Of a stretch of DNA of 64,000 nt, positions 53,648 through 58,319 are shown one piece after another. Below the pieces are notes generated by a model. That model was not told where the DNA came from. It searched no databases and worked only from the letters and a program-made list of their open reading frames with translations. Within the stretch, counting starts at the first letter, position 1. Each line of letters opens with the position of its first letter. The stretch spans positions 248,001 to 312,000 of the forward strand of contig JBFMCV010000004.1 of assembly GCA_040754335.1 (NCBI GenBank), written 5' to 3'. The DNA comes from Thermodesulfobacteriota bacterium. Its GTDB lineage: Bacteria; Desulfobacterota_D; UBA1144; Nemesobacterales; UBA2774. The position numbers were made by a program, and so were the translations under genes.

Positions 53648-54649
53648 ATGGGTTCCGGAAGATTAAAAATAGTATCCATAGCGGTCCTGATATCGCTCTT
53701 CCTGGGCGCGTCCGTGCTGCTCGGTCTTTACTACTACATAAACAGTGTTCCGACTGTTTCCGAAGACAGGGTCGTGGATATACCAAAGGGTGAAGGACTG
53801 AGGAATATATCGGCGATGCTTGAGGAAGAGGGAATCATCGGGAACGGCGACTTGTTCACGCTCTACGTTATCGGGAAGGGCTGGCAGGACAGGCTCAAAG
53901 CCGGTGAGTATGAGTTCAAAAAGGGCAGCACGACTTCTCAAGTCGCCCTCAAGATTGCGGAGGGCGACGTGGTCATACACAAGGTGACGATACCGGAAGG
54001 GCTCACTGCGAGGGAGATCGCGGAGCTCCTCGGGAGGAACGGCGTGCTAGACCCGGACGGGTTCCTCGCTGCTGCCGGGGACCGGGAGATCTTGAAAATT
54101 CTCCCGGGGCGTCCTATCACCGGGATCGAAGGTTATCTGTTTCCCGACACCTATACATATACCAAAGGCGTTACGCCCGAGGAATTCGTTCGGATGATGG
54201 TGAGCCGGTTCAAAAAAGTATATAGCTCGCTCGGCGGTTTGAGGCGGAGGGTGAACCTTACCGACAACGAGGTAATTATACTCGCGTCTATGATCGAGAA
54301 GGAGACGGGCTCTCCGTCCGAGAGGCCTGTTATCTCGGCCGTCTTCCATAACCGTCTCAGACTCGGCATGAAACTGGACAGTGACCCTACCGTAATCTAC
54401 GGGCTCGGGGACGACTTCGACGGGAACCTGACCAAGGCGGACCTCAATACCATGACGCAGTACAATACTTATCTGATAAAGGGGCTGCCGCCCGGACCGA
54501 TATCGAATCCCGGCAAGGAATCTATTATCGCGGCCCTGAGCCCGGCCCGGGTGGACTATATATATTTCGTCTCCAGGGGCGACGGGACGCACTACTTTTC
54601 AGAGAATTACAAGGACCACCAGAGAGCCGTATCCGAATACCAGAAGTAA
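53648..54649 (+). CDS. mltG: Endolytic murein transglycosylase MltG
   Basis: A 333-residue YceG-type enzyme that cleaves nascent glycan strands. N-terminal membrane helix (about 8-28), LysM-like subdomain (40-140), and the YceG catalytic part with ASMIEKETGSPSERP (catalytic Glu) and VFHNRLRLGMKLDSDPTVIYG. It begins nine bases after proB and converges with the VWA gene, six bases apart. Confidence 0.94.
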   Translation: MGSGRLKIVSIAVLISLFLGASVLLGLYYYINSVPTVSEDRVVDIPKGEGLRNISAMLEEEGIIGNGDLFTLYVIGKGWQDRLKAGEYEFKKGSTTSQVALKIAEGDVVIHKVTIPEGLTAREIAELLGRNGVLDPDGFLAAAGDREILKILPGRPITGIEGYLFPDTYTYTKGVTPEEFVRMMVSRFKKVYSSLGGLRRRVNLTDNEVIILASMIEKETGSPSERPVISAVFHNRLRLGMKLDSDPTVIYGLGDDFDGNLTKADLNTMTQYNTYLIKGLPPGPISNPGKESIIAALSPARVDYIYFVSRGDGTHYFSENYKDHQRAVSEYQK

Positions 54650-54655
54650 GAAGGA

Positions 54656-55636
54656 CTAGGCGAATACCTTGCTGAAAGGGTCGACCTGGGACTTGTCTTC
54701 CTGCACAGGGGCAACGAGCTTCTTGTCCCTTCTCTCTATCCTGATAGTCCCGTCCTTCCTCCGCGTGGCTATGAACTGAGTCCCGCTCGTCTCTCCCGAT
54801 ATCTTCTGCAGTATCCGGGGATAGTTCTTGGAGCCGATGAAAATCGAGTGTATGCAGACGCCCAGTTTCTTGGCCCTCGACCTTTCGTCTAGCACGTCGC
54901 AGTCGCCCGAGGTGGGGATACCGTCCGTGATGAACAGTATGTGCTTGTTCCTGAGCCCCCGCCCCCTGAACTCCGTAAGCGCGTCCTTGAGTGCGTCCTC
55001 GTAATTGGTGTTGCCTGAGCATTCCGTCTTGGAAGCGAGGTCCAGCATCCACTGGTAATCCCTCGTGAAGAACTTGGAGTTCCTCTTGTACTTGTACGAG
55101 CGGTGGTTGAATTCCACGTATCCGACCCTCATCTTTTTCGATCTCGCGAGCTCGATGACGCCCCTTACGACGGATGAAGACCATTCGCTGTAAACGCCCA
55201 TCATCGACGTGCTCACGTCCCTCAGGATGGCGATCTCCCCTCCCATCATCTCCTTCTCGCGCTTGTGCACTCTCGGGAGCGTGGGGGTGGTGTACTCCGA
55301 CCAGAACATGGCCTCGTAAGGGTCGACGTCCTCGATCTCGTCGAAATAGTTCATCCTCTTCCATTTCCTCGGCAGTCCGCCGGGGTGAGGCGCGCGGAGC
55401 GCGATGCTCCTCTGGAAATTCCCTTCGAGAACCTTCATTATAACCTTAACGTTATCGGCTGATTCCAGATTCCTTTTGCCGCCTATCCAGTAATCTTCCT
55501 CGTCGCCCGGGTCCGGGGACTTGCTCGCGAATACCTTGGTTGTCTTCGGGGGCTGCCTGTCGTCCCTCCTCCTCCCGTCGTCGGAAGCCTGGCCCGTAGG
55601 GTCGGAGGGTATGTTCATCTCGTCAGGAGGAGCCAT
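54656..55636 (-). CDS. VWA-domain protein, partner of MoxR ATPase
   Basis: A 326-residue protein when started at ATG 55636, which has AAGGAG six bases upstream. Its C-terminal two-thirds is a von Willebrand A domain with the MIDAS motif ILRDVSTSM (DxSxS), a second-site Thr in ECSGNTNYEDAL, and ITDGIPTSGD. Upstream of the ATG the same frame stays open for about 65 codons with a charged, helix-forming, protein-like sequence and no start codon, back to an A11 run inside the MoxR gene. So a longer MoxR-VWA product through slippage or -1 frameshift is likely as well. Metal-dependent partner binding and MoxR-assisted protein or cofactor maturation are inferred from the family. Confidence 0.82.
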   Translation of the reverse strand: MAPPDEMNIPSDPTGQASDDGRRRDDRQPPKTTKVFASKSPDPGDEEDYWIGGKRNLESADNVKVIMKVLEGNFQRSIALRAPHPGGLPRKWKRMNYFDEIEDVDPYEAMFWSEYTTPTLPRVHKREKEMMGGEIAILRDVSTSMMGVYSEWSSSVVRGVIELARSKKMRVGYVEFNHRSYKYKRNSKFFTRDYQWMLDLASKTECSGNTNYEDALKDALTEFRGRGLRNKHILFITDGIPTSGDCDVLDERSRAKKLGVCIHSIFIGSKNYPRILQKISGETSGTQFIATRRKDGTIRIERRDKKLVAPVQEDKSQVDPFSKVFA

Positions 55637-55803
55637 GGAGCTCTCCTTCTGGATGTTTTCCTTGAGTTCTTTCAAAGCCTGGAAGAATGTCTTGCGCGCT
55701 TCGGTGAGCTGGTCCTGGGACTCTTTTTTCCCCTGCTCGTCCGGGAATTCCTGCTTTTGCTCTTCGGGTGTATCCTTGTCAAACTCCGTGGACGGCTGTT
55801 CCT

Positions 55804-56766
55804 CTAGCTCGCTCCCCCTGTCCCTGTCTTTTTTTTTTTGGACGTGAGGTCTTCTAAAATCTGGTCGAGCTGCAGGAAAACCTCTTCAGGGATCCTGAAA
55901 GCGGTCATGTATTTGAGTGCGTTAAGGTCTTCGAGCGTGCACACTTCCCTTCCGTGCAGGAGCGCATGCGCCCTCATTATCTTTAGAGACTTTACGAAGA
56001 AAGTCCTGTCGGATATGAGGGAATTCGTTTCATTGCATCCGTAGTCTTCTATTAATGTCGCCACGAAATTCGCGAGCCCTTCCTGTACTTCGATGGGGAT
56101 TTCGAGGTTGCCAAGCTTGCTGTAGTATTCGTCGAATACTTCCTTGCTGACCCTGGCCGGCACGCGGTACTCGAGAGGTCTTTGCGTGTAAAGCTTGATT
56201 ACCTCCCTCGCCTCGTCCCATCTCTTGCCGTAAGAGAGGCCCTGGGCGTTTATCTGGAGGACGAACCTGTCGAGGTTGGCCGGATCAAGGGGCTCGTTGT
56301 AATACTCGTCCGCAGTCGGGTTGCTGGTGGCAATCGCCGTCAGGAGTGGTATGTCTTCGTCGAAAAACTTTCTTTCGTTGAGGATTCTAAGAAGCACGTT
56401 GAGCGATTCGCCCGGGGCTCTGGATATGTCGTCCAGGAGGCATACCTCTGCTGTCAGAATGCCGCCCTTAACCACCTTCTGTTTTATTACCTCGCCTGTA
56501 TCCGTGGTTTCTTTGGATATGACCAGGTCGCCTATCAGCTCCGAGAGTCTCGTATCCCTGTGGAGCTGGTAAAAGAAGAACTTCAGCTGCGCGGCCCCGG
56601 ATATTATCTCGGCAAGCATCGTCTTCGCCGTCCCGGGCGGTCCTTCAACATAGATATGCTCTCTGGCTATGATACCGAGCAGGAGAGATATTTTTACCTC
56701 CTCGTGTCCTATAACCAGCTTATCCATTTCTTCTTTCAGAGCTATAAATGGATTCTGTGATGTCAT
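55804..56766 (-). CDS. MoxR-family AAA+ ATPase
   Basis: A 320-residue AAA+ protein: Walker A VEGPPGTAKT (about 39-48), Walker B EVCLLDDIS, sensor 1 ATSNPT, and arginine-finger region ANLDRFVLQI. The C-terminal lid covers about 205-300. MoxR proteins act with VWA partners in maturation of other proteins. The last residues (SKKKK then TGTGGAS) arise from an A11 tract; after the tract the other frame continues into the VWA gene. GGAGG is 12 bases before ATG, rather far. Confidence 0.9.
   Translation of the reverse strand: MTSQNPFIALKEEMDKLVIGHEEVKISLLLGIIAREHIYVEGPPGTAKTMLAEIISGAAQLKFFFYQLHRDTRLSELIGDLVISKETTDTGEVIKQKVVKGGILTAEVCLLDDISRAPGESLNVLLRILNERKFFDEDIPLLTAIATSNPTADEYYNEPLDPANLDRFVLQINAQGLSYGKRWDEAREVIKLYTQRPLEYRVPARVSKEVFDEYYSKLGNLEIPIEVQEGLANFVATLIEDYGCNETNSLISDRTFFVKSLKIMRAHALLHGREVCTLEDLNALKYMTAFRIPEEVFLQLDQILEDLTSKKKKTGTGGAS
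55829..55839 (-). promoter_or_regulatory. A11 slippery run at MoxR/VWA junction
   Basis: Eleven consecutive A residues in the coding strand of the MoxR gene. A -1 ribosomal shift, or transcripts with one extra A, would lead from residue 313 of MoxR into the open linker of the VWA frame (starting DRDRGSE). Confidence 0.65.
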
Positions 56767-56966: not shown

Positions 56967-58319
56967 ATGCAGGAAACCATTACATCATTCCTTTCCGAGC
57001 TGAGCGGCATCGTGTGGGGCATTCCCCTTATTGCGCTCCTCCTGGGGACCGGTATCTACCTGACGGTCATTCTCAGGGGGCTACAGTTCCGCGCTTTGAT
57101 ACCTTCCCTATACCTCGCGTTTATAAAGAGACACGAAGAGGGGGAAGGGGATATATCCCATTTCCAGGCCCTCATGACGGCACTCTCCGCGACTGTGGGC
57201 GTGGGGAACATAGCGGGCGTGGCGACGGCGATAGCCGTGGGCGGTCCCGGGGCGATGTTCTGGATGTGGGTCACCGGGTTCCTGGGCATGGCCACGAAAT
57301 ACTCCGAGGCCGTCCTGGCCGTCAAATACAGGGAAGTCGACAAGTTCGGCACGATGAGCGGCGGTCCCATGTATTACATCTCGAAGGGTCTCGGGCTCGG
57401 ATGGCTCGGAATGCTTTTTGCTGTATTCGCGGCGTTAGCCACTTTCGGGATAGGCAACATGGTGCAGTCGAACTCGGTAGCTGACGCCATGCATACTGCG
57501 TTCGGCATCTCCCCCTGGATTTCGGGTCTCGTGATGTGTGTAGCGACGGGACTCGTAATCGTAGGCGGGATCAAGAGCATCGCCAAGGCGACGAGCGCGA
57601 TAGTGCCTTTCATGCTGATATTCTATGTGGTCGGCTCATCGATAATCCTTTATGCGTACAGGGAGAATATTCCCAACGCCTTTTATCTCATTTTTTCCCA
57701 CGCTTTTTCCCCTTCTGCCGCCGCGGGGGGCTTCTTGGGTGCTACTATAGCTCAGACGATAAGGATAGGGGTCGCGAGGGGTATATTCTCTAACGAATCG
57801 GGTTTGGGGAGCTCTCCTATAGCAGCAGCTGCCGCGAAGACACAGAACCCTGTGGGTCAGGCGCTGGTGTCCATGACCCAGACATTTATAGATACCATCA
57901 TTATTTGCTCGTTTACGGGAGTCGTTATCATTTCGAGCGGGTTCTGGACGAGCGGCGAGACCGGCGCCAGGCTCACGGCACTGGCATTTGAGAGCAGGAT
58001 ACCGGCACAAGCGGGGGCCGCCATACTCGGGATCAGCCTTGCCTTCTTCGCTTATTCCACGCTCCTCGGCTGGTGTTACTACGGCGAGAAGGCCATAGAA
58101 TATATCTTCAAGGAGAGGGCTGTAAAGCCCTACAGGCTTGTATTTACAATAGCCGTGCTCGTGGGCGCCGTGGTGAAGCTCGAGCTCGTATGGACTTTTG
58201 CGGACGTAATGAACGGGCTCATGGCGTTCCCCAATCTCGTCGGACTTTTGGGACTGTCGAGGGTGGTCGTCGACGAGACCAAAAAATATATCGACCTCGA
58301 GATTTCCCGCGCAAGGTAA
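56967..58319 (+). CDS. AGCS-family sodium:alanine/glycine symporter
   Basis: A 450-residue inner-membrane symporter with about 11 helices. Signatures: ATVGVGNIAGVATAI, the conserved FGTMSGGPMYYI, RGIFSNESGLGSSPIA, and FAYSTLLGWCYYGEKA. It imports small neutral amino acids (alanine, glycine) with Na+. It stands alone with its own terminator-like hairpin. Confidence 0.94.
   Translation: MQETITSFLSELSGIVWGIPLIALLLGTGIYLTVILRGLQFRALIPSLYLAFIKRHEEGEGDISHFQALMTALSATVGVGNIAGVATAIAVGGPGAMFWMWVTGFLGMATKYSEAVLAVKYREVDKFGTMSGGPMYYISKGLGLGWLGMLFAVFAALATFGIGNMVQSNSVADAMHTAFGISPWISGLVMCVATGLVIVGGIKSIAKATSAIVPFMLIFYVVGSSIILYAYRENIPNAFYLIFSHAFSPSAAAGGFLGATIAQTIRIGVARGIFSNESGLGSSPIAAAAAKTQNPVGQALVSMTQTFIDTIIICSFTGVVIISSGFWTSGETGARLTALAFESRIPAQAGAAILGISLAFFAYSTLLGWCYYGEKAIEYIFKERAVKPYRLVFTIAVLVGAVVKLELVWTFADVMNGLMAFPNLVGLLGLSRVVVDETKKYIDLEISRAR

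Follow-up and report, generated by a model that had tools for sequence, protein, structure and literature searches.

A conserved A-run at the junction of a MoxR ATPase and a VWA domain suggests a slippage site yielding two products from one gene

A MoxR-type ATPase ORF runs into an open VWA frame at an A11 run

The window, the whole 64-kb stretch of DNA analysed here, carries a MoxR-type AAA+ ATPase ORF with a run of exactly 11 A residues close to its end, as the initial annotation had reported, and a VWA domain encoded downstream in a different frame (Table 1). The codons of the MoxR frame across the junction are TCC AAA AAA AAA AAG ACA GGG ACA GGG GGA GCG AGC TAG, leaving a short tail, TGTGGAS, after the run. 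It had been proposed that a -1 shift or one extra A would open a frame into the VWA domain, and this holds: the frame entered is free of stop codons from the run to 54656 and passes through the linker peptide GSELEEQPSTEFDK, giving a predicted MoxR-linker-VWA fusion product of about 700 aa. The mltG gene (53648-54649) is convergent with MoxR-VWA, with a gap of 6 nt (window 54649-54656), and this convergent neighbour is present in 13 of the 13 loci compared, while a divergent symporter gene (56967-58319) lies upstream. No operon partner hinting at a substrate was found among the neighbours (mltG, proB and the symporter gene), the flanking genes being on the opposite strand.

Table 1 Features of the MoxR-VWA locus and their positions in the window
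Feature	Position	Strand	Description
MoxR-type AAA+ ATPase ORF	55804-56766	minus	320 aa, C-terminal SKKKKTGTGGAS, TAG stop 55804-55806
A11 slippery run	55829-55839	minus	AAA AAA AAA AAG in MoxR frame
-1 frame with charged linker and VWA domain	54656-55837	minus	stop-free from run to end
Linker helix LTEARKTFFQALKELKENI	55652-55708	minus	conserved in split and fused lineages; precedes the first ATG of the VWA frame; helix 350-378 of HRbin37 fusion model
Candidate internal start	55634-55648	minus	AAGGAG 55643-55648, 6-nt spacer, ATG 55634-55636
VWA domain	54773-55234	minus	Pfam VWA 38.5 bits, P0002 residues 202-355

The ATPase has a MoxR-type AAA+ core, with Walker A and AAA lid, whose best solved matches are 2r44 and RavA. 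In a Pfam scan it scored 76 bits against bpMoxR (cut-off 27), with AAA_5, AAA_3 and AAA_lid_8 also above cut-off. Its match to Mg_chelatase was short and marginal (19.6 bits in P0001 with a cut-off of 20.3; 22.2 bits over 39 residues in the fusion P0003), and with bpMoxR far above Mg_chelatase the scan did not find a ChlI/ChlD-type AAA+ domain. The partner domain scored above the Pfam VWA cut-off and is fused to MoxR in two families of the phylum (f4 and f2) and in the outgroups. A defence-system library returned weak IetA AAA matches only. In a structure model of the HRbin37 fusion the final AAA+ lid helix comprises residues 300-319 and the run falls at its end, so that the short form is predicted to retain the whole ATPase; the AAA+ part of this model is usable and its VWA half is too weak to assess a NorD-type finger.

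The run is retained while the frame state changes

A sample of 58 genomes of the phylum yielded a MoxR ortholog in 54 and a covered junction in 52, representing eight families (f1 to f8). Most of the named relatives belong to Candidatus Dadabacteria (L059-L062, L066, L067, L069), and some records bear the labels Deltaproteobacteria, Thermodesulfobacteriales, Desulfobacterota or HRbin37. Run length in relatives had been suggested as a check, and each of the 52 Dadabacteria junctions proved to have a run of 9 to 11 A residues at the same codon position, as do seven orthologs from outside the phylum, which gives 59 of 59 orthologous junctions. The VWA domain lies in the -1 frame in 41 of the 52 (f1, f3, f6, f7, f8 and one of f5), in a single in-frame ORF of 704-735 aa in eight genomes (seven of f4, one of f2), and in the +1 frame in two, L043 (G047) and L053 (G019), both with A9. 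The sister genomes of the latter two have A10 with the -1 frame; the +1 state is either a homopolymer assembly error or a true drift of the frame, for which only slippage by the polymerase could compensate. These counts cover 51 of the 52 junctions, L058 (G042) having been set aside for its damaged frame. Several in-frame stops occur in both its MoxR and VWA parts, and the broken frames are probably due to a low-accuracy assembly.

Outside the phylum, searching 387 genomes with the VWA query recovered an ortholog in only six, a sharp boundary reproduced by a profile search. In all six, MoxR and VWA form an in-frame fusion whose MoxR part carries A10 or A11 at aa 310-315; a seventh ortholog, from G388, has A10, and the seven come from three bacterial groups. 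The A-run is retained in all orthologous in-frame fusions, comprising the eight from Dadabacteria and all outgroups, and on the tree the frame state switched at least about three to five times while the run stayed. One genome (G151) also encodes a diverged paralogous MoxR-VWA fusion (L073; G151:C1:1542900-1546600) about 20 kb from the first, the junction of which is without an A-run, providing a natural control.

Within the window the junction holds the sole run of at least nine A, counted as three overlapping nine-mers where 0.76 are expected. The 3.26-Mb genome contains two sites of at least ten A, of which the MoxR junction is the only A11 and the other is intergenic. Genome-wide counts combined with run positions and lengths identified the junction run as the only site of at least ten A in 11 genomes of the phylum (G001, G002, G005, G008, G011, G020, G027, G028, G035, G036 and G038). 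Such counts rule out a chance A-run.

The second site of the window genome, an A10 (L032:1501-1510, G000:C2:233316), precedes by about 16 nt the ATG for a 408-aa protein, whose N-terminal HGSMETPVSRIYNCYLEG we take to resemble an AA10 polysaccharide monooxygenase.

Evidence for translation of the linker

Over the stretch from 30 to 190 nt past the run, the VWA frame had a pN/pS of 0.12 in the genus of the window genome, 0.02 in g10, and 0.10 and 0.03 in two f8 groups (overall range cited for the linker 0.02-0.14), compared with 1.5-14 in the other two frames of the split lineages. Split and fused lineages also share the linker motif SEFDxDxP...SEARKTFFQALKELKENI. This constraint at the protein level indicates that, read in the VWA frame, the linker is evolving as a protein, and it bears out the linker conservation on which the initial annotation had made its reading depend. 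In L022 and L047 the VWA frame is without ATG, GTG or TTG for 403 and 355 nt past the run, respectively, so that the constrained linker would be reachable only via MoxR, barring a rarer start codon.

The locus had been thought to give two or three products, the third being VWA alone from an ATG with AAGGAG, described as having no start codon before it. The ATG and the AAGGAG 6 nt upstream of it are present and the preceding stretch is indeed free of ATG and GTG, but a TTG at run+164 (55673-55675) precedes the ATG at run+203 (55634-55636). An SD and ATG at run+203 or the equivalent position occur only in L002, L003, L004 and L006 (f1 genera g1 and g4); because they are confined to four close genomes, VWA alone would be at best a local product, and one that the sequences support weakly. 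Comparative evidence strongly supports the ATPase alone and the fusion, whereas for VWA alone the SD and ATG are not conserved.

Alternative explanations for the junction

It could be argued that MoxR and a separately started VWA are two ordinary genes and the A-run is incidental, and the AAGGAG-ATG at 55648-55634 of the window is what this would predict. That start is not conserved, however, protein-level constraint acts on the linker ahead of any start codon, natural fusions retain both linker and run, and the run is without any AAG at its two Lys columns, making such an arrangement very unlikely. A lysine tract selected as protein only, at a Lys-rich lid end and with AAA arising from codon bias, would fit the conserved Lys at the run positions and the preference for AAA in low-GC genomes. 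Yet AAG encodes 40 of the 52 lysines outside the run in the window's gene, while in the two aligned run columns all Lys codons are AAA, with no AAG among 55 sequences from 11 families; six other conserved MoxR Lys columns have AAG in 6-10 of the 11 families each. AAG at these other conserved lysines rules out codon bias as the cause of the run, and we regard selection on the protein alone as extremely improbable. There is next to no probability that a homopolymer error in sequencing or assembly conceals a true A12 or A10, the outcome that would have undone the original proposal. Homopolymers of this length are error-prone, and L043 and L053 may be examples, but A11 was obtained in 13 independent assemblies of the family, and other assemblies have A10, their flanks matching and the VWA likewise in the -1 frame, which excludes an error in practice. 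The A11 run is neither a product of chance nor an assembly error.

From the comparison of sequences we infer that slippage takes place at the run, and RNA polymerase is its probable agent; of the two routes first envisaged, an extra A added by the polymerase would fit better than a -1 shift of the ribosome. The junction has features expected of either, namely a conserved A/T run of at least nine at a functional frame junction and a -1 frameshift heptamer, A_AAA_AAG in the window and A_AAA_AAA elsewhere. The run was never shorter than nine at any of the 59 junctions, although 6-7 A suffice for a ribosomal heptamer, which favours polymerase slippage; in many genomes it is from nine residues that runs show selection against slippage (PMC1088944), and the A9 run of T. 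thermophilus dnaX is a precedent for slippage by the polymerase (PMC1088944). Polymerase slippage is further favoured by the retention of the run in both polarities and by the lack of a conserved hairpin or SD-like element: among the 59 junctions a conserved downstream hairpin was not found (mean z -0.86, the window's own z +0.8) and just two had an SD-like stimulator. Programmed -1 ribosomal frameshifting at A_AAA_AAG or A_AAA_AAA would make the fusion as in E. coli dnaX and in chlD, which uses heptamer-type sites (PMC5009743, PMC3711429). It would be consistent with the in-frame A_AAA_AAR heptamer, with the VWA in the -1 frame at 41 of 52 Dadabacteria junctions and with downstream folding z below -2.5 in six genomes. 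We nevertheless hold the ribosomal route to be possible but rather unlikely, given runs that always have 9-11 A where 6-7 would suffice, stimulatory elements that are not conserved and two +1 configurations which, if real, it could not serve.

The six genomes with stable folds are L045, L046, L050, L053, L054 and L055, in which the downstream 65 nt are more stable than shuffles (z -2.8 to -4.1); such folds occur in some f5 and f8 genomes and are absent from others. Slippage is further supported by six of the seven fusions in the outgroups, where both shifted frames stop within 0-11 codons past the run, distances that rank among the rarest 1-12% of codon positions in those genes. In the seventh, L078, one shifted frame stops at once (KKK-stop), its TAG overlapping the last A of the run, and the other stops within about ten codons. 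The same comparison of codon positions in the f4 fusions found off-frame stops no nearer than usual.

A model for the supply of mixed subunits

Taking these observations together, we consider it very probable that a single gene with a programmed slippage site yields both MoxR and MoxR-VWA, probably for a mixed AAA+ hexamer. At the run of 9-11 A at the lid-helix end, a fraction of expression events would change frame. The DNA's own frame in the window genome would give MoxR alone (320 aa), and the MoxR-linker-VWA fusion would arise either from a transcript with A12 or A9 in place of A11 or from a -1 shift of the ribosome; in the in-frame lineages the same run would act conversely, with slippage producing the short MoxR. 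A defined mix of VWA-free and VWA-bearing subunits would in this way be supplied to a mixed hexamer. We infer this purpose from related MoxR systems, in which one VWA module serves the whole ring. A VWA on every subunit would crowd the ring, and slippage would provide the mixture. A strict one VWA per hexamer would need very strong slippage in the in-frame lineages (five short forms per fusion), and the subunit ratio may therefore be looser.

We also lean slightly towards an ancient origin, in which the slippage site would predate the split of Dadabacteria from at least the three outside groups and would set the MoxR-VWA stoichiometry, the DNA frame having drifted between fused and split with both proteins kept. 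Polymerase slippage would give access to each of the three frames whatever the phase of the run, leaving the DNA frame free to drift. Slippage at this junction would extend recoding to MoxR proteins and would point to a general route to one VWA arm per several ATPase subunits. A run retained whether the DNA is fused or split provides a natural setting in which to test slippage by the polymerase against slippage by the ribosome, and annotation pipelines would call two genes at such a junction or miss the fusion.

Comparison with known systems

The initial annotation was aware of no such report for MoxR, and in keeping with this we found no report of MoxR frameshifting or slippage in open-access full text; the accessible text of two large recoding surveys does not mention MoxR. 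As far as we found, recoding at AAA+/VWA junctions was previously known only for chelatases.

In the accessible descriptions of NorQ/NorD and CbbQ/CbbO, a MoxR hexamer likewise works with a VWA partner at one VWA protein per hexamer, with one NorD per NorQ hexamer (NorQ6:NorD1; PMC9976466) and a 6:1 ratio in CbbQ6:CbbO1 (PMC4660213), and in NorQD the VWA finger sits in the pore (PMC13036017). These pairs differ in being encoded by two separate genes, and the same descriptions do not mention a linker fusion or recoding. One of the nearest MoxR structures solved is that of RavA, whose partner ViaA is a VWA protein; RavA/ViaA, however, are separate genes, RavA has extra domains and the identity is only 22-24%, the closest solved match being CHU_0153 (2r44). 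The bpMoxR ternary systems (PF20030) share the type of MoxR domain, the one here scoring 76 bits with a cut-off of 27, but their beta-propeller partner is absent beside the gene here.

In dnaX, AAA+ subunits are mixed within one oligomer. According to the accessible text on Thermus thermophilus dnaX, its A9 run has the long product in frame and transcriptional slippage leads to the short product; it differs in encoding a clamp loader, not MoxR-VWA, and that text does not describe a split-frame state (PMC1088944). The analogy with chlD drawn at the outset proved correct: in chlD/bchD, recoding makes AAA+-only and VWA-bearing forms from one gene, which is found in both split and fused versions (PMC3711429, PMC9227772). 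The architecture of AAA+, linker and VWA is common to both, with the AAA+ family being ChlI/ChlD there and MoxR here. Whereas the sites of ribosomal shifting in chlD are followed by RNA structure (PMC9227772), the MoxR-VWA junction has a run of 9-11 A without conserved structure and, unlike chlD/bchD, retains that run in its in-frame fusions too.
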